Source of the DNA: Clostridiaceae bacterium
GTDB lineage: Bacteria > Bacillota > Clostridia > Peptostreptococcales > Tindalliaceae
Length of the DNA: 64,000 bases
NCBI GenBank assembly: GCA_024635995.1
Contig: JAGXHW010000028.1
Location: 1 to 64,000 of the forward strand
Direction: 5' to 3'
Below the pieces are notes generated by a model. It saw only the letters and a program-made list of their open reading frames with translations, ran no database searches and had not been told where the DNA came from. Numbering within the stretch: position 1 is the first letter of the stretch; every line of letters starts with the position of its first letter. Position numbers and translations under genes: made by a program. Of this stretch, positions 30,727 through 45,318 are shown in pieces.

Positions 30727-30827
30727 GTTTTCAACTCCTGCGAAATAGAATGAACGATTTGGTGTACTTATCTGCATTTAGTGTAACGCAGTTTAGAGGC
30801 TTTTGCAATCGATAACCATAACGAATA

Positions 30828-30854
30828 AAACCGCCATTTTTTAAATGACGGTTT
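30828..30854 (-). terminator. Terminator after the activase operon
   Basis: AAACCGCCATTT pairs with AAATGACGGTTT (one mismatch); on the minus strand the stem is followed by TATTCG, on the plus strand by CTTATT. T tracts are short, but the position after the 30905 stop fits a terminator. Confidence 0.6.
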
Positions 30855-30904
30855 CTTATTAAAGACAAAAGGAATGGCTGGGTAGAACAGAGATGTCCTC
30901 TCTC

Positions 30905-31879
30905 TTACAACACAGTTTTAACAGAATTTGTCCACTTTCCACATCGATCGCCCCAACGGGCAACGATTTTTTTATCCAGACGGACTTCCACCACTTCGCA
31001 GTGGTTTGGACAATCTTCACATTCAAAGGTGCTGGGAACAAACTCCAGGTCTGCCGCTTCAAACCCTCTAAACTGGGTTTCCACCCGAGAATTCCAAATC
31101 TCATCACGTGCTAAGATGGCAGAACCAAGAGCACCCATGATGTTATAGTGTTCCGGTATAATGATTTCGTGATTAATTTCCTTTTCAAAAGCAGCTTTGA
31201 TCCCTTTGTTAGCAGCAACTCCACCCTGGAACACAAAGGGAGGTTCCAGTTTTTTGCCCCTGCCCAGGTTATTGATATAGTTTCGTACCAGTGCCTCACA
31301 TAATCCTTTGATAATTTCAGATTTGGAAAAACCAAATTGTTGCTTGGCAATCATGTCTGATTCTGCAAAAACAGTACATCTGCCTGCAATACGAACATCT
31401 CTGTCGGCTGCAAGCGCTTTGTCGCCAAAATCTTCAATGGGAATGCCCAGTCGTTCAGACTGGTGGTCCAGAAAAGAGCCTGTACCTGCTGCACAGACTG
31501 TGTTCATGGCAAAATCTGTGACCATCTGGTCATCCACCACGATAATTTTAGAATCCTGTCCACCAATTTCAAAAATGGTTTTGACATTTGGTACAAAATG
31601 AATGGTGGCTGTTGCATGGGCAGTGATTTCGTTTTTAATCACATCAGCCCCTATCATAACTCCTACCAGCTGTCTGCCGCTGCCGGTCGTACCAACACCT
31701 TTGATCATGCCATCGGCTGGAAATTCTGTTTTAAGCTTCTTGAGCCCTGATTTTACTGTTTCCAAAGGTTGCCCATTGGTACGAATGTACTGGCTTGAAA
31801 TCACATTAATTTCTTCATCCACCAGCACAATGTTTGTGCTGACAGATCCCACGTCTACTCCCAAATAAAGCTCTCGCAA
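30905..31879 (-). CDS. 2-hydroxyacyl-CoA dehydratase activase-like ATPase (BadF/BcrA/HgdC family)
   Basis: A 324-residue ASKHA-fold ATPase. LYLGVDVGSVSTNIVLVD is the N-terminal phosphate-binding motif, GVGTTGSGRQL follows, and CAAGTGSFLDHQ holds the first cluster cysteine; IAGRCTVFAESDM holds the second. Such dimers carry a bridging [4Fe-4S] cluster and pump one electron into a partner dehydratase with ATP. The TTG at 31879 is preferred because the ATG at 31888 abuts the GGAGG. Unusual for this family, a C-terminal CEDCPNHCEVV..DRCGKW cysteine-rich tail is present. It is the last of a three-gene operon with two dehydratase-like subunits. Confidence 0.9.
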   Translation of the reverse strand: MRELYLGVDVGSVSTNIVLVDEEINVISSQYIRTNGQPLETVKSGLKKLKTEFPADGMIKGVGTTGSGRQLVGVMIGADVIKNEITAHATATIHFVPNVKTIFEIGGQDSKIIVVDDQMVTDFAMNTVCAAGTGSFLDHQSERLGIPIEDFGDKALAADRDVRIAGRCTVFAESDMIAKQQFGFSKSEIIKGLCEALVRNYINNLGRGKKLEPPFVFQGGVAANKGIKAAFEKEINHEIIIPEHYNIMGALGSAILARDEIWNSRVETQFRGFEAADLEFVPSTFECEDCPNHCEVVEVRLDKKIVARWGDRCGKWTNSVKTVL

Positions 31880-31914
31880 CGATTTCATCCTCCTATAATC
31901 AACAAATAATCTGC

Positions 31915-33057
31915 TTAACCAATGGCGGAGACTTGTTGTGTACTTTTATTGATGTTTTTGTCGGCTTGGTTTAATCGCTCTTTATGTTTGTTTTTAACCA
32001 AATCAATGAAAGCTTCCACCCTGGTTTGGTTATTGGCTATGCCTGATTGTTCGTCCAGGGATATGGTGAGTACCGGAATCCCAAAATCTTCAGTGATTTT
32101 AGGAATAATACTCTGTGATACCAATTCAGGCAGGCATCCAAAGGGCATCAGATGAACGACTCCGTCGAACCCTCTAAGGCTGTAATCAACGATTTGGCCT
32201 ACACTTTGTTTGGCGTGTCCGCCAATTTGTATGGGTAAATATGGGTCACTTAGTTTCAGGACATGTTTTTCATGGGACCAGTTTATCCATTTAGGCAGCA
32301 TATTATAGGTAACCCACTGTGACAGGTATTGGGATCTTTCCACCTCAGCGCCAAGGCTGTTAAGAAGCTGTTCCATTTTCATGTTGATGGAATCTTCCAT
32401 GACCACATAGATTTCTCCAACTATTCCGATGCGGATGCGGTTTTCTTCCTCCACAGGGTTCAACTCGATGGCCGCCAGCATTTTTCTTCCTTTATTGTAG
32501 GCATTCCGCAATGCACCTCGTGTATATGCCTTGTCAAACATTTTCTGTATGTGTTCCCATATACGAGTGGTTTCCCCCCGGTTCACTTCATGGGCACGTA
32601 TGCGTTGCACCTCTATTTCCAGTTTGTCCAACTTGCCAATCATATCGTACACCGTCCATAAGGCGTGGGCTACCTTATGCAAAGGCGTTTTACCTTTGAG
32701 GCGTTTGACATTTTTAATGAAAGTTTTACGATCGCGGAACATGGAATCGAAGACAATAAAATCGACAAAGTGTCCTTCTGCTTCCAGAATACTTCTGTGA
32801 ACGCGCTCGTAAAAGCCCGCACGGCAAGGCCCGTGACCACCTGACGTTATAATAACCTCAGCACCTTTGTCGATGGCTTCAAAATAACTGCCCATGATCA
32901 CCTTTAATGGAAAACAGGCAAACTCAGGACTATATTTGACCCCCAGGTTAATGGTTTTTTGTGTGGGTTTCGGCGGCATAATCACCTCATGCCCCAGCAT
33001 TTCCAGTAATTTCTTATAAACGACAGTGGTACCCATATAGGGAAATGACACTTTCAT
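31915..33057 (-). CDS. 2-hydroxyacyl-CoA dehydratase-like protein (DUF2229/activase-associated type), subunit 2
   Basis: A 380-residue cytosolic protein beginning MKVSFPYMGTTVVYKKLLEMLG. Cysteines lie at SPEFACFPLK, HGPCRAGFYE and MPFGCLPELV, positions comparable with cluster ligands of the 2-hydroxyacyl-CoA dehydratase fold. The C-terminal DEQSGIANNQTRVEAF motif also occurs, slightly changed, in the neighbouring gene (DEHSGENHLQTRIEAY), so the two proteins are distant paralogues. In many Clostridia these units are fused with the activase in one very large protein. The reaction is unknown. It is placed two bases after the 33060 gene and 35 bases before the activase. Confidence 0.82.
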   Translation of the reverse strand: MKVSFPYMGTTVVYKKLLEMLGHEVIMPPKPTQKTINLGVKYSPEFACFPLKVIMGSYFEAIDKGAEVIITSGGHGPCRAGFYERVHRSILEAEGHFVDFIVFDSMFRDRKTFIKNVKRLKGKTPLHKVAHALWTVYDMIGKLDKLEIEVQRIRAHEVNRGETTRIWEHIQKMFDKAYTRGALRNAYNKGRKMLAAIELNPVEEENRIRIGIVGEIYVVMEDSINMKMEQLLNSLGAEVERSQYLSQWVTYNMLPKWINWSHEKHVLKLSDPYLPIQIGGHAKQSVGQIVDYSLRGFDGVVHLMPFGCLPELVSQSIIPKITEDFGIPVLTISLDEQSGIANNQTRVEAFIDLVKNKHKERLNQADKNINKSTQQVSAIG

Positions 33058-33059
33058 GG

Positions 33060-34073
33060 CTAAGCACCTCTTTGCGTATTCAACTGTTTTTTACGCCGCA
33101 ACATATCCACGTACGCCTCAATCCGGGTTTGTAAATGATTTTCGCCGGAATGCTCATCAATGCGTACGGTCATAAAAGGTTTCTGGTATTTGACAGAATC
33201 CAGTTCAAGCAATTTCCCCAGCATGGAATCCGGTCCGCAGCCAAAGGCTGTTACATGGATCAGGCCGTCAATGTTTTCTTCGTTATAGAAGTGATACCCT
33301 GCTGCAAACAGTTTGTCGCTAAATGTCCAGAACATGGTTTTGGGCATTCCTATCAGCCGTTCTTTTAACATGCGTTCAGGGATCATCTCAAAGGTTTTCA
33401 CCTTAACATTCATCTCCCGCAATTTGCTGAGAACATCCAAGCTGATCATGGAATCATACAGGTTATATACATACCCCAGAACGCCCAGGGTGATTTCGTC
33501 CTTTTGTAGCTCTGTATTGCTTACTGCCACTTCCTGCGGTTTTTTGGTGCCCAGGGCAATGGCCATTGCATCGGGAACCTCGTAGCCTTTCAGGCTCAAT
33601 CGTCGAAAATCCAGCCATACCATTTCTGCTTTTTTCAATGCCTTTTTGTTGGCAGCGTTGGTAACGCCTAACTTCTCCTCGATTTCACGGTATTGCTTCG
33701 GCGAAGTGGCTAAATCGTCGGTGGTGCTTTCGATGGCCGGTATCAATAAACGTGAGGCAATGTGGGGAAACGAATGGCGGATCATGTCCGGCAGCCCCAT
33801 GAATTTGGGACAGAAAAACTGACCTTTTTGTATGGACACGAACCGGGGAACAAAAATCCAGTCTGCTCCCATGTTAACCAGCTGCAAGACATGCCCCAGA
33901 TAGACCTTAATGGGAACGCAAATTTCCGGAACGGAAGCTTTGACACCCAGGTCCATCACGATTTTATTGGTAGGCGGTGAAACCACGACTTCTATGCCCA
34001 ATTCTTCAAAATACGTTTTCCAGAACGGGTAATAATAATGGTAAAGCAATGCTCTGGGAATTCCAACTTTCAT
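33060..34073 (-). CDS. DUF2229-type acyl-CoA dehydratase activase-related protein, subunit 1
   Basis: A 337-residue protein with the family start KVGIPRALLYHYYYPFWKTYFEELG. Conserved cysteines appear in VPEICVPIKVYLGH, RFVSIQKGQFFCPKFMG and TAFGCGPDSM; the C-terminal VRIDEHSGENHLQTRIEAYVDML is a family mark. The start is the ATG at 34073, GGAGG upstream. The family is found in anaerobes beside activase ATPases and probably binds an Fe-S cluster; its substrate is not known. First gene of the three-gene operon, with a strong promoter. Confidence 0.84.
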   Translation of the reverse strand: MKVGIPRALLYHYYYPFWKTYFEELGIEVVVSPPTNKIVMDLGVKASVPEICVPIKVYLGHVLQLVNMGADWIFVPRFVSIQKGQFFCPKFMGLPDMIRHSFPHIASRLLIPAIESTTDDLATSPKQYREIEEKLGVTNAANKKALKKAEMVWLDFRRLSLKGYEVPDAMAIALGTKKPQEVAVSNTELQKDEITLGVLGYVYNLYDSMISLDVLSKLREMNVKVKTFEMIPERMLKERLIGMPKTMFWTFSDKLFAAGYHFYNEENIDGLIHVTAFGCGPDSMLGKLLELDSVKYQKPFMTVRIDEHSGENHLQTRIEAYVDMLRRKKQLNTQRGA

Positions 34074-34118
34074 CAACACAACCTCCTGTCATGCTGTCGC
34101 AATATGCGGGTACAATCC

Positions 34119-34147
34119 ATTATAACGCTTTTTTGACATTGTGCCAA
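34119..34147 (-). promoter_or_regulatory. Promoter of the dehydratase-like operon
   Basis: TTGGCA (34142-34147) and TATAAT (34119-34124) on the minus strand with a 17-base spacer, about 45 bases before the first gene. Confidence 0.75.
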
Positions 34148-34211: not shown

Positions 34212-35105
34212 TCAATGGCTTTCAATTTTCACTCTGACCAATGACCTGCTTCTGTTTAATAGTTTTGACAATGTCATCCAGGAGTCTGTTTCCGCAAAAT
34301 CAGCTGCCCTGGATTCAATTTGTTTTTGCATCATCAAGATGTCAGCGTCAATAAGCTTTGCTGTTTGTTTCATTTTTTTTATTTCACTTTTATGAAGACG
34401 TTTTAACATCCATTGGCGTTTCCAGTCAGGGTAATGAAGAAGCCATTTGGCTGAACGCCAGGCCATGCCTCCGGCAGCCAGGGTGATGAGCAGGCCGGGA
34501 ACCAGGCTTTTATGGCGGTCTCTTCCCGGACTAATAGCTTTTAGACCGCTGGCGATGCCCCTGGGTGTCAAGCCTCTTTCTCCTGACACTGCCACCATGC
34601 CTATGGGTACACCCAACCCAATAATTCCTGCAAGGGTTTGACGGGCAACCTTACTTGTTAGTTTTTCAGGCTGTAGTTCCGGCAGGTATGCGCTGTCATT
34701 TTTGTACATTAGATGGATCATATCAATGTGCTCTTCCTGAACAGACAGTTTTTCCAAAACCTGGTTAAAGAGTCGAACTTCTTCGTCTCCTTCATCGTGG
34801 TCTGCCATAAGCATGTGATAGATATCTTCCACCAATGAAAAACGCAACAGATTTCGTTCTTCCTCCAATTCCACTGACATCAGTGTGTTGCATAATGTTT
34901 GCAGGTCTGTGTCCGGCGATAACATAAATTCCAGTACTGCTCGTCGTTCCTTGTCTTTTAATGCCAGTTCCTGTAATGACCTGTAAAAAGCCACCACCAC
35001 TGAGGTTTCCGGATAAGGGGTTGCCATTATTATCAACCCGGCTATCTTAGCATAGGCAAGACGTATTTCCTGGGGCATGTCTCCCGGGGTTCTGTTTTTT
35101 TTCAT
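34212..35105 (-). CDS. TerB-like helical protein with a C-terminal glycine-rich hydrophobic region, function unknown
   Basis: The ATG at 35105 (GAAGGAGAG upstream) gives 297 residues. The first 150 residues are helical and acidic; EERNLLRFSLVEDIYHMLMADHDEGDEEVRLFNQVLEKL resembles the TerB/DjlA-N fold, including an acidic D-E-D patch that may bind metal. It is followed by GIIGLGVPIGMVAVS and LVPGLLITLAAGGMA, two short glycine-rich hydrophobic segments that may insert into a membrane, and a very basic helix (WKRQWMLKRLHKSEIKKMK). I do not recognise a named family for the whole protein. It is a single gene between two operons. Confidence 0.65.
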   Translation of the reverse strand: MKKNRTPGDMPQEIRLAYAKIAGLIIMATPYPETSVVVAFYRSLQELALKDKERRAVLEFMLSPDTDLQTLCNTLMSVELEEERNLLRFSLVEDIYHMLMADHDEGDEEVRLFNQVLEKLSVQEEHIDMIHLMYKNDSAYLPELQPEKLTSKVARQTLAGIIGLGVPIGMVAVSGERGLTPRGIASGLKAISPGRDRHKSLVPGLLITLAAGGMAWRSAKWLLHYPDWKRQWMLKRLHKSEIKKMKQTAKLIDADILMMQKQIESRAADFAETDSWMTLSKLLNRSRSLVRVKIESH

Positions 35106-35197
35106 GTTAATCTCTCCTTCACTCAAATCGATGATTATGAGCTTTACATCCATATTGTATCTTATTCCCCATAAAAGCACAAAGTAAAAGCACATGT

Positions 35198-35260: not shown

Positions 35261-35458
35261 TTAACCCCCTCCAAGGGGACGTAAAACTTTAACCCGGTCT
35301 CCTTCGTGAAGCTGTCGGGTTTCGTACTCCTTTTGCAACAGCCGCTGGTCGTTCACCCAAACAGCTACCCTCTTTGACAGCCCCGCTGACACCAGCAGGT
35401 CAATGACCCGGCTTCCTTCATCGATGTGCATGTTTTTCTGGTTCATCGTTACAATCAT
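35261..35458 (-). CDS. MoaD/ThiS-family sulfur carrier, associated with aldehyde oxidoreductase
   Basis: A 65-residue beta-grasp protein ending VKVLRPLGGG; the C-terminal Gly-Gly is the site that is thiocarboxylated in MoaD and ThiS. The start is the ATG at 35458 with GCAGGTG before it. It lies 49 bases downstream of the aldehyde oxidoreductase gene. Such pairing is common in anaerobes, and the small protein is thought to supply sulfur for the pyranopterin of the tungsten cofactor, which is inference from context. A ThiS role is less likely, since no thiamine genes are close. Confidence 0.85.
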   Translation of the reverse strand: MIVTMNQKNMHIDEGSRVIDLLVSAGLSKRVAVWVNDQRLLQKEYETRQLHEGDRVKVLRPLGGG

Positions 35459-35507
35459 TGTAACACCTGCTTCAAGGATGAATTTATTCGATGACACGCT
35501 TTTTCGC

Positions 35508-37400
35508 TTACTTATCCAACAACCAGTTTAAGGAAAGCTTTCTCAGAGTTGCCTCCGTTGGTTTGCCATCGTTGTCCCAACCCATGAACCCATAGTAAGA
35601 TGCTCTGGCTTTTTCGAAGTCTGCTTTTTTCATCTGGTGTCCCTCAGAAGGGCCATTAGGCATGGGGTCAAAAAGACGTTCCGGCAGTACATCATCCTTG
35701 GCACTGAAACCATCTCGCACATTAAACCAACGCATCATGTTTATACGTCGCTCCCCGATATCCATTAACTCCTGCACAGATGTCTCCCAGCCAATGCCAT
35801 ATTTACATGCATCGACCAATTCGGCAGGTCCGTACAACTGCCAGGATGGTCCCCAGGAAAATTGACACAGACACAGTGAATCCATCATGGAATAAAACTT
35901 CTGACCTGCAATGGCAAAACGGACTTTTCCATCGTCCAGTGTTTTTTGATCATCATACTGGAGATTGATACCCAGCATTCCCAGCCACACTTGTTCTTTT
36001 GCATCTGCCGGCATAGTGAGAAAAGGATCATGTTCACAGGATTGGTGGTCTGCCCCAAAGTTGTTGACAGCATAGATCAATCCCATGGCCGGTTTATACT
36101 GGGGCATGTGGGCAGGCAGTTCCTGTTTCTTCACACTTACACTGAGTGGCAGCGCTTCGGGTCCCAGTTTTTCTGCCATACGGTAGCTGCCTTCTGCCAT
36201 CATGTTGCCTATTCCTTCCCGCAGGGCAATTTTTTTAATCAGCTCCGGATAAATTGATCCATTACCGAAGGTGATGTCCATGCCATCCGCATCTTCTTTG
36301 GTCAAAATGCCTTTTTCCATACACTCCATCACAAATGCGATGGTGGCTCCACAGGAGATGGTGTCCAGGCCATACATATTACAGTATTGGTTTGCCACGG
36401 CTATGTCTTCCAGGTTCTCTGTCTGACAAAACGAACCGAAAGCAGCACAAGTTTCATATTCCGGGCCGCCATAGAAAGGATCCACTTTACCTTCCACTTC
36501 GACAACACGCTTACAGCGTATGGCACAACTGAAACAGGTGTCTCTGCCTTTCAGAATGGTTTTAGCCATGGTTGTACCGGTAATTTTTTTGGCGCTGTCT
36601 CCAAAATACCCTGAGCTAAAATTGCGTGTGGGCAGAAAACCGTCCCGGTTATGACTATTCAGTTCACCGTCTGTACCAAACTGGCCTAACGCCTCGACGC
36701 CTTCATTTTCGGTAATACGTTCTTTCACATTACCTGTTAAAGTCTTAAAACCTTCCTGATCCACCGCCTTTCTTGCCTTACCTTTTTTTACCACCACAGC
36801 TTTCAATAGCTTGGATCCCATCACTGCCCCTGTTCCGTTGCGGCCGTTGGCACGATTTGACATGTTCATAATGGATGCATATTTTACCATATTTTCCCCA
36901 GCTGGACCGATTTGAGCAATTTCCAGTTGTTCGTCTTCCAATTCTTCCTTAATTATTTTTTCTGCTTCACCGGTTACCTTGCCCCACACTGAAGAAGCAT
37001 CTTTTAATGCCACTTTTTCTCCATCAATGTAAAGATATACAGGTTTTTCTGACTTTCCCCGAAAGATGATGGCGTCATAACCGTTAATCTTCAGCTGAGC
37101 CGGAAAAAAACCACCTGACTGGCTGTCACCTATGGTGCCTGTCAAAGGACTTTTTGTGGTGATGGTCAACCTGCTTTGACCGCTGATGGGCAACCCTGTC
37201 AGCACTGAAACTGAAAAAATCAACATATTCTCCGGGGATAAAGGATCAATGCCGGCTCCCATTTCCTGCAAGGCCAGGTATAACCCCAGGGAAGACCCTC
37301 CTGGGTACAACCTGTAAATCTCTCCGGACAGTGTTTTGGTATCAATGGCACCTTTGCTTAAATCAACGTCCAATATTTTTGCATCAGGAAACACACTCAT
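35508..37400 (-). CDS. aor: Aldehyde:ferredoxin oxidoreductase (tungsten pterin)
   Basis: A 630-residue enzyme that oxidises aldehydes to acids and reduces ferredoxin, or the reverse. N-terminal pterin-binding marks are YPGGSSLGLYL (about 29-39) and SVLTGLPISGQSRLTITTKSPLTGTIGDSQSGGFF in pieces. The [4Fe-4S] ligands lie in CFSCAIRCKRV and, further on, a single Cys in MDSLCLCQFSW. FGADHQSCEHDP and GIGWETS are also family-like. It binds a W- or Mo-bispterin without nucleotide. The start ATG has GAGGAG before it. Two 20-22-base direct repeats lie in the leader. Cotranscribed with the MoaD-like gene. Confidence 0.95.
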   Translation of the reverse strand: MSVFPDAKILDVDLSKGAIDTKTLSGEIYRLYPGGSSLGLYLALQEMGAGIDPLSPENMLIFSVSVLTGLPISGQSRLTITTKSPLTGTIGDSQSGGFFPAQLKINGYDAIIFRGKSEKPVYLYIDGEKVALKDASSVWGKVTGEAEKIIKEELEDEQLEIAQIGPAGENMVKYASIMNMSNRANGRNGTGAVMGSKLLKAVVVKKGKARKAVDQEGFKTLTGNVKERITENEGVEALGQFGTDGELNSHNRDGFLPTRNFSSGYFGDSAKKITGTTMAKTILKGRDTCFSCAIRCKRVVEVEGKVDPFYGGPEYETCAAFGSFCQTENLEDIAVANQYCNMYGLDTISCGATIAFVMECMEKGILTKEDADGMDITFGNGSIYPELIKKIALREGIGNMMAEGSYRMAEKLGPEALPLSVSVKKQELPAHMPQYKPAMGLIYAVNNFGADHQSCEHDPFLTMPADAKEQVWLGMLGINLQYDDQKTLDDGKVRFAIAGQKFYSMMDSLCLCQFSWGPSWQLYGPAELVDACKYGIGWETSVQELMDIGERRINMMRWFNVRDGFSAKDDVLPERLFDPMPNGPSEGHQMKKADFEKARASYYGFMGWDNDGKPTEATLRKLSLNWLLDK

Positions 37401-44175: not shown

Positions 44176-44203
44176 AAAAACCCGCAGCTTAGGTGGCTGC
44201 GGG
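44176..44203 (-). terminator. Terminator of the DUF523/DUF1722 gene, overlapping its stop
   Basis: On the minus strand CCCGCAGC pairs with GCTGCGGG around CACCTAA, then TTTTTATC. The loop contains the stop codon and the 5' arm encodes the last residues (DPAAT). Confidence 0.9.
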
Positions 44204-45148
44204 ATCGTCTTCCATTATTTTCCGTACTCTTTGTTCGCTACGGTACAAGATTGGTGCGGAAGAAAAAAATTGTCCTTTTTCAAAAGCATTACGTTCCATG
44301 GCTAATAGCTCTTTGGTAATCTGCGTAATGTTTCGGGGTGTTTCAGGTGGCAACACCACATCAACTTCCCCATAAGCTGTTCGGCGATGGTAGATATAAC
44401 TCTTCCAGAGCCGTTGCTTTATTCGGTTTACACTTGATGGTTTGCGCAAAATCTCAAGAACACTTGTCTTAAGGTCTTTTGCATCAGTCGGGGAAAAACC
44501 CTTTGGAAGATTAGCCAGCTTCTTCCCAAGGTTTCTGGCCAGAGACTCATCCAGTTCCTGGCACAAAAATTTAACAGTATACCACATGTTATACAAGTCT
44601 TGCTTTGATGTTATTTCCTGCTGCTTAACCCAAACAAATGCGTGCAACCTTCGTCGCCAATCCCACCAACGCAAAGGACTTTCCAGGTCTATGGCTGGAA
44701 TGAGAAAAAACCCTTCCCGTAATAATAATGCACCAAAAACACCTGGCGGGTGCCCCAATCGTTTGTTTTTTAAACTTGTTCGATACACACCACAGGTGGG
44801 ACTGCCTTCCATGAACACATACCCCACTGCACCTGCCTTTTTCAACGTCTCAAGAGATTGCAAACACGCCTGCTTAAGGCGTTCCGTAACATCCTCACCT
44901 TTCCGGTTAAGCACTTTGGCTGTTCCGTCCCACACGTCTTGTCCATTGCCACCCGAAATTCTGATGGGTTCTCTTGGAACACCCAGTGCAGCTATCACTT
45001 CAGGACAAACCGGATGCCAGATAAAATCACCCTGTTCCCGGTTCAGCTTCTTGATACGGTCCCATCCTTTACGGTTATAGCGGTAAGGAGCTCCAAAATT
45101 ACATCCGCTCACGCCCAATACTACTTTTTCCTGGAGCAGAAACTTCAT
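44189..45148 (-). CDS. DUF523 plus DUF1722 protein (TudS/YbgA-type)
   Basis: From the ATG at 45148 (CGGAG before it) 319 residues. Residues 1-about 150 are DUF523: VLGVSGCNFGAPYRYN, HPVCPEVIAALGVPREPIRI and FMEGSPTCGVY each supply one conserved cysteine, a set known to hold a [4Fe-4S] cluster in the thiouracil desulfidase TudS. Residues about 190-310 are DUF1722, with HAFVWVKQQ at its start. The fusion is found in many bacteria; a role in removing sulfur from thiolated compounds is plausible but unproven. Single gene with its own promoter. Confidence 0.85.
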   Translation of the reverse strand: MKFLLQEKVVLGVSGCNFGAPYRYNRKGWDRIKKLNREQGDFIWHPVCPEVIAALGVPREPIRISGGNGQDVWDGTAKVLNRKGEDVTERLKQACLQSLETLKKAGAVGYVFMEGSPTCGVYRTSLKNKRLGHPPGVFGALLLREGFFLIPAIDLESPLRWWDWRRRLHAFVWVKQQEITSKQDLYNMWYTVKFLCQELDESLARNLGKKLANLPKGFSPTDAKDLKTSVLEILRKPSSVNRIKQRLWKSYIYHRRTAYGEVDVVLPPETPRNITQITKELLAMERNAFEKGQFFSSAPILYRSEQRVRKIMEDDPAAT

Positions 45149-45318
45149 TGTCATCAACTCCGTTTCATATGATAACATCCTGAGGTTACTTGAACTGCCA
45201 AGATCTTTTACGCTTATACCCCAACCTGGTTACCATAAGCAGAAATCTTCATGATGACTTTCAAACAAAGTTTCGTTTCTATAACGTGGTCCTCAACCTT
45301 AAAATGTATATTAATACA

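Follow-up and report, generated by a model that had tools for sequence, protein, structure and literature searches.

The three-gene operon at positions 30,905 to 34,073 (minus strand) of the window, by which we mean the whole stretch of 64,000 nucleotides analysed here (contig JAGXHW010000028.1 of the Clostridiaceae bacterium assembly GCA_024635995.1), probably encodes a split, ATP-driven, plasmalogen-synthase-like phospholipid ester reductase that replaces the fused enzyme PlsA. Its genes are arranged as D1-D2-activase and lie 2 and 26 bases apart, as read from open reading frames and Pfam matches, and this order is conserved in most of the split loci examined, so the operon is not a chance arrangement. 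The original prediction had already recognised the operon and described it as a stand-alone ATP-driven reductase, probably no hydroxyacyl-CoA dehydratase, that might drive "another difficult reduction". The reductase reading is kept, and the conversion of a phospholipid acyl ester into a vinyl ether is now a strong candidate for that reduction, because of the family membership of the proteins, the mutual exclusion with PlsA and the presence of plasmalogens in Thermoanaerobacter, whose ten searched genomes lack PlsA. If this assignment holds, a widespread gene group so far without an assigned role would receive a testable job, and three small proteins would do what one giant enzyme does in most related anaerobes. 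Genome-based prediction of plasmalogens from PlsA alone would then fail for Thermoanaerobacter, Anoxynatronum, Natronincola and similar bacteria.

Relation to PlsA and other DUF2229 systems

DUF2229 proteins are present in 278 of the 300 genomes of our phylum sample. DUF2229 joined to activase domains is the architecture of PlsA, the enzyme that, in combination with PlsR, converts diacyl lipids into plasmalogens (PMC9702350, PMC12838417). A 2026 paper reported further PlsA homologs in the Bacillota it screened, which lack an activation domain and whose role was unclear (PMC13274423). Judged by description only, the split D1 genes match these homologs, and an activase gene follows D1 and D2 in most split loci examined; therefore, these loci are probably complete three-part systems. 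We refer to the class of the window's operon as type A, to the other split classes as types B and C, to PlsA as F1 (represented by Listeria, Fusobacterium, Collinsella and Acetoanaerobium proteins) and to the other fused types as F2 and F3.

The D1 tree places F1, including its Listeria and Fusobacterium members, and type A in two different clades, each with a support of 100; a single fragment labelled B and a single unassigned row also group with type A. The activase tree separates F1 from type A as well, again with full support for the PlsA clade, and the operon is thus a relative of PlsA rather than PlsA itself. Both systems, PlsA/PlsR being either fused or encoded as plsA plus plsR, combine an activase, a DUF2229 (Red1) protein and a Red2 partner, and both have six cluster cysteines and a four-cysteine motif, which in PlsA follows the second activase domain. 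The operon differs in consisting of three separate genes in the order given above, in its own clade and other second-shell residues, and in having one separate activase gene where PlsA has Red1 joined to a tandem pair of activase domains. Residues shared by type A and PlsA as opposed to type B were considered as further evidence, but were too sparse and were dropped. One control, Thermus composti, gave a DUF2229 match, which is odd for an aerobe, but it is missing from the list of controls with a match to the activase family.

In the source genome, profile searches returned the operon as the sole match to DUF2229, the activase family and HGD-D, so no second, classic dehydratase was seen in the sequenced part of this 75% complete assembly. 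Two congeneric relatives, whose assemblies are 97% and 99% complete, likewise have this operon as their only DUF2229 system. Distant type A neighbourhoods have the three operon genes alone in common, which agrees with the stand-alone character originally proposed; conserved gene neighbours were rejected as a clue to function, since distant type A loci have no common partner.

Distribution of type A operons and PlsA

Type A and PlsA substitute for one another. In the order, 217 genomes were compared, of which 26 have type A, 174 PlsA, one both and 18 neither (p = 3.6e-20), i.e., PlsA is present in 1/26 type A genomes versus 173/191 of the others, and the single genome with both shows 6% contamination. 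Because relatedness inflates the order-wide p value, exact tests within families were used in place of a genome-tree test. The five mixed families together contain one genome with both systems, compared with 9.8 expected (p = 1.3e-7), a value to be taken as a guide only, because the families were picked for holding both states and relatedness persists among the species of each family. The tables for families f3 and f11 were drawn from a fully listed set of 78 genomes, the phylum sample supplied those for f66 and f40, and that for f78 came from a search covering all of the order to which f78 belongs. Genus g4 of family f3 holds both a PlsA species and a type A species. Type B operons, in contrast, occur together with PlsA in f3 and f11, so the exclusion is not a general effect of DUF2229 systems in those families.

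These distributions also bear on the possibility that the operon performs the ATP-driven reduction of a non-lipid substrate, such as a small molecule, a cofactor or a protein, and resembles PlsA in chemistry only. The separate type A clade with its own conserved residues, the stand-alone operon with varied neighbours, and the double-cubane cluster protein (DCCP), which has the same fold and reduces small molecules (PMC11971306), all speak for such a role, but it does not predict the exclusion of PlsA within families, and we regard it as unlikely.

Plasmalogens in Thermoanaerobacter

Of particular relevance to a lipid substrate is the genus Thermoanaerobacter, where ten genomes were searched and type A was found in nine and PlsA in none; in its sister genus (g134), PlsA is present in eight of nine genomes and type A in one. 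The T. kivui type strain contains about 17% dimethyl acetals, i.e., plasmalogens, and a cold-adapted strain 37% (PMC10601643). G538, a genome that is probably T. kivui, has no fused PlsA, and its DUF2229 genes are limited to a single complete type A operon and a single type B operon. The type A proteins of G538 are 49-63% identical to those of the window and have all cluster cysteines. As T. kivui apparently makes plasmalogens without PlsA, type A is the leading candidate for the enzyme responsible. In some Thermoanaerobacter genomes, the type A D1 or D2 looks shortened, broken or frameshifted (three loci in three genomes). No fatty-acid data for Anoxynatronum, Tindallia or Natronincola were found in open papers.

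The same acetals are relevant to a glycerol ester reductase (Ger), a modified PlsA of the same ester-reducing family, which would reduce the acyl ester fully to a saturated alkyl ether instead of a vinyl ether. Ger was compared by description only. The validated Ger proteins, which yield alkyl ethers, are fused and have two activation domains (PMC13274423), and the dimethyl acetals of T. kivui derive from vinyl ethers (PMC10601643). A Ger-type reaction is therefore rather improbable.

Several observations weigh against the operon being a plasmalogen-synthase-like enzyme that takes the place of PlsA. One complete genome, G189, carries both type A and PlsA, and the exclusion is weaker in the phylum sample (n = 300), where PlsA is found in 1/17 type A genomes versus 89/283 of the others (p = 0.027). 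PlsA genomes of that sample also appear to be poorer in type B, according to a reading of the lists and without a statistical test. The type A clade stands apart from PlsA with many conserved second-shell differences (e.g., TRxEA in D1 versus IRxRS in PlsA), and type A neighbourhoods have no constant lipid gene. In addition, the T. kivui plasmalogens could come from the type B operon or from an unrelated enzyme, and the assignment of G538 to this species is only probable.

Fold and cluster cysteines of D1 and D2

D1 (33,060 to 34,073, minus strand; 337 aa) is the DUF2229 (Red1-like) subunit (PF09989, 4.9e-50), with an ATG start at 34,073 and a possible alternative GTG at 34,079, and D2 (31,915 to 33,057, minus strand; 380 aa) is the HGD-D-like (PlsR/Red2-like) subunit, matching both PF09989 (1.6e-13) and PF06050 (HGD-D, 4.9e-09). 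The HGD-D score is just over the cut-off for D2 and under it for D1. A motif that the original prediction had pointed out in both proteins is located in their C-terminal parts, as DEHSGENHLQTRIEA in D1 and DEQSGIANNQTRVEA in D2. Both subunits are predicted to fold like members of the benzoyl-CoA reductase/2-hydroxyacyl-CoA dehydratase (BCR/HAD) family: their AlphaFold models, with predicted local distance difference test scores of 88 for D1 and 83 for D2, matched solved members of this family exclusively in Foldseek (E < 0.001), namely 2-hydroxyisocaproyl-CoA dehydratase, DCCP, BzdNO and MbdON.

The candidate cluster cysteines are C52, C88 and C279 in D1, which are invariant throughout types A, B and C, PlsA and F2 in the alignment, and C48, C78 and C308 in D2, which are conserved in types A, B and C and PlsA. 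Exactly three cysteines per D protein remain unchanged in all of about 80 split operons, save for one gapped D2 row, and all six are conserved in PlsA as well. C308 of D2 aligns with a cysteine of the HadC chain 3o3m_B, and the catalytic cluster of BzdO is held by three cysteines of similar spacing (PMC11971306). Three cysteines per subunit would suit a [4Fe-4S] cluster that leaves a coordination site free. DCCP shares the fold and the activase, whereas its [8Fe-9S] cluster has six cysteine ligands (PMC11971306, described for BzdN), and an identity as double-cubane protein was rejected, as type A has three invariant cysteines per D subunit rather than six.

HadBC/HadI and HgdAB/HgdC likewise share with the operon the fold, a paralogous subunit pair, three-cysteine clusters and a homologous activase. 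They differ in their identity of about 15% to the operon proteins in structure alignments, while the operon has an extra four-cysteine C-terminal domain on its activase and no CoA pathway genes seen beside it. CoA-transferase, acyl-CoA dehydrogenase and Etf genes, whose absence had been remarked on originally, were indeed not seen on reading the open reading frames of the window, Pfam having been run on the operon and five neighbours only. Pairing with a CoA-transferase in relatives was looked for too, and none recurs near these operons, whose neighbours were mostly identified by reading. It is therefore highly improbable that the operon encodes a classic 2-hydroxyacyl-CoA dehydratase or benzoyl-CoA reductase with CoA thioesters as substrates, for although the fold and cysteine ligands match HadBC and BzdNO, the HGD-D scores are marginal or below cut-off, no CoA-transferase was seen nearby, the genome has no other activase match, and the distribution of type A tracks the absence of PlsA.

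Activase and its C-terminal domain

The third gene (30,905 to 31,888, minus strand) encodes a BcrAD/BadFG-type activase of 327 aa (PF01869, 1.5e-43; TIGR00241, 188 bits, over the cut-off). Residues 8-271 align with HadI, HgdC, an MbdQ subunit and the DCCP reductase, and C132 and C171 fall on cysteines of 1hux, 4eht, 9gai_D and 7yyl_E. The equivalents of these residues in HgdC are ligands of a [4Fe-4S] cluster that bridges the dimer. Beyond this part lies a C-terminal domain with the pattern C290-x2-C293-x3-C297-x18-C316, which is invariant in 70 split activases, save for one gapped row at C316. The solved activases lack this domain, and their matches stop near residue 271. The C-x2-C-x3-C part is also present in PlsA-type fused proteins, where it follows the second activase domain and precedes DUF2229. 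Judged from these alignments, the four-cysteine domain is a family feature of split activases and fused PlsA; the CEDCPNHC cysteines of the original prediction are thus present, but the description of them as unusual does not hold. The fused types F2 (about 1300-1370 aa) and F3 (about 1430 aa) lack the C-x2-C-x3-C motif (nine loci), and F2 was found in PlsA genomes and in type A genomes.

Proposed mechanism

We infer the lipid substrate, the vinyl-ether product, the clusters and the electron path of the operon enzyme by analogy with BCR/HAD enzymes and with the sequential electron reductions, protonation and dehydration proposed for PlsA (PMC8788747). Ferredoxin would reduce the activase, possibly via the C-terminal four-cysteine domain, which probably binds a further metal site. 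The activase is expected to act as a homodimer with one [4Fe-4S] cluster between its two halves, held by C132 and C171, and its ATP hydrolysis would drive low-potential electrons, one at a time, into the heterodimer of D1 and D2. There, two three-cysteine [4Fe-4S] clusters may act on a diacyl phospholipid and reduce its sn-1 acyl ester to the hemiacetal level; loss of water from this product would then give the 1-alk-1'-enyl (vinyl) ether. More tentatively, and with slightly less than even confidence, we propose that anaerobic plasmalogen synthases have a second, independent lineage in the split form, which took the place of PlsA on several occasions in Clostridia and has the four-cysteine domain as its electron entry.

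Surroundings of the operon

The promoter that had been proposed for the operon, TTGGCA-17-TATAAT, is present at 34,119 to 34,147 (minus strand), 46-74 bases upstream of the D1 start. This site, a pattern match only, agrees with the consensus at 11 of 12 positions and is the best among 13 matches in the region, where 9.3 are expected by chance. A terminator-like hairpin with a stem of 13 pairs, again a pattern match only, lies 3' of the activase gene (30,827 to 30,855, minus strand). Just 5' of D1, a gene at 34,212 to 35,195 (minus strand) encodes a protein of about 300 aa without a Pfam match, relatives of which lie in the vicinity of type A operons at 15 loci, all from related families. Close to the operon, at 35,261 to 37,400 (minus strand), are an aldehyde ferredoxin oxidoreductase (AFOR_N/AFOR_C) and an adjoining small ThiS-like protein; the oxidoreductase is near the operon in two genomes of the same genus as well, and a connection to fatty aldehydes is a mere thought. 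Farther away, at 44,192 to 45,178 (minus strand), the window encodes a protein of the 2-thiouracil desulfurase (DUF523/TudS) family (PF04463, 5.5e-26).
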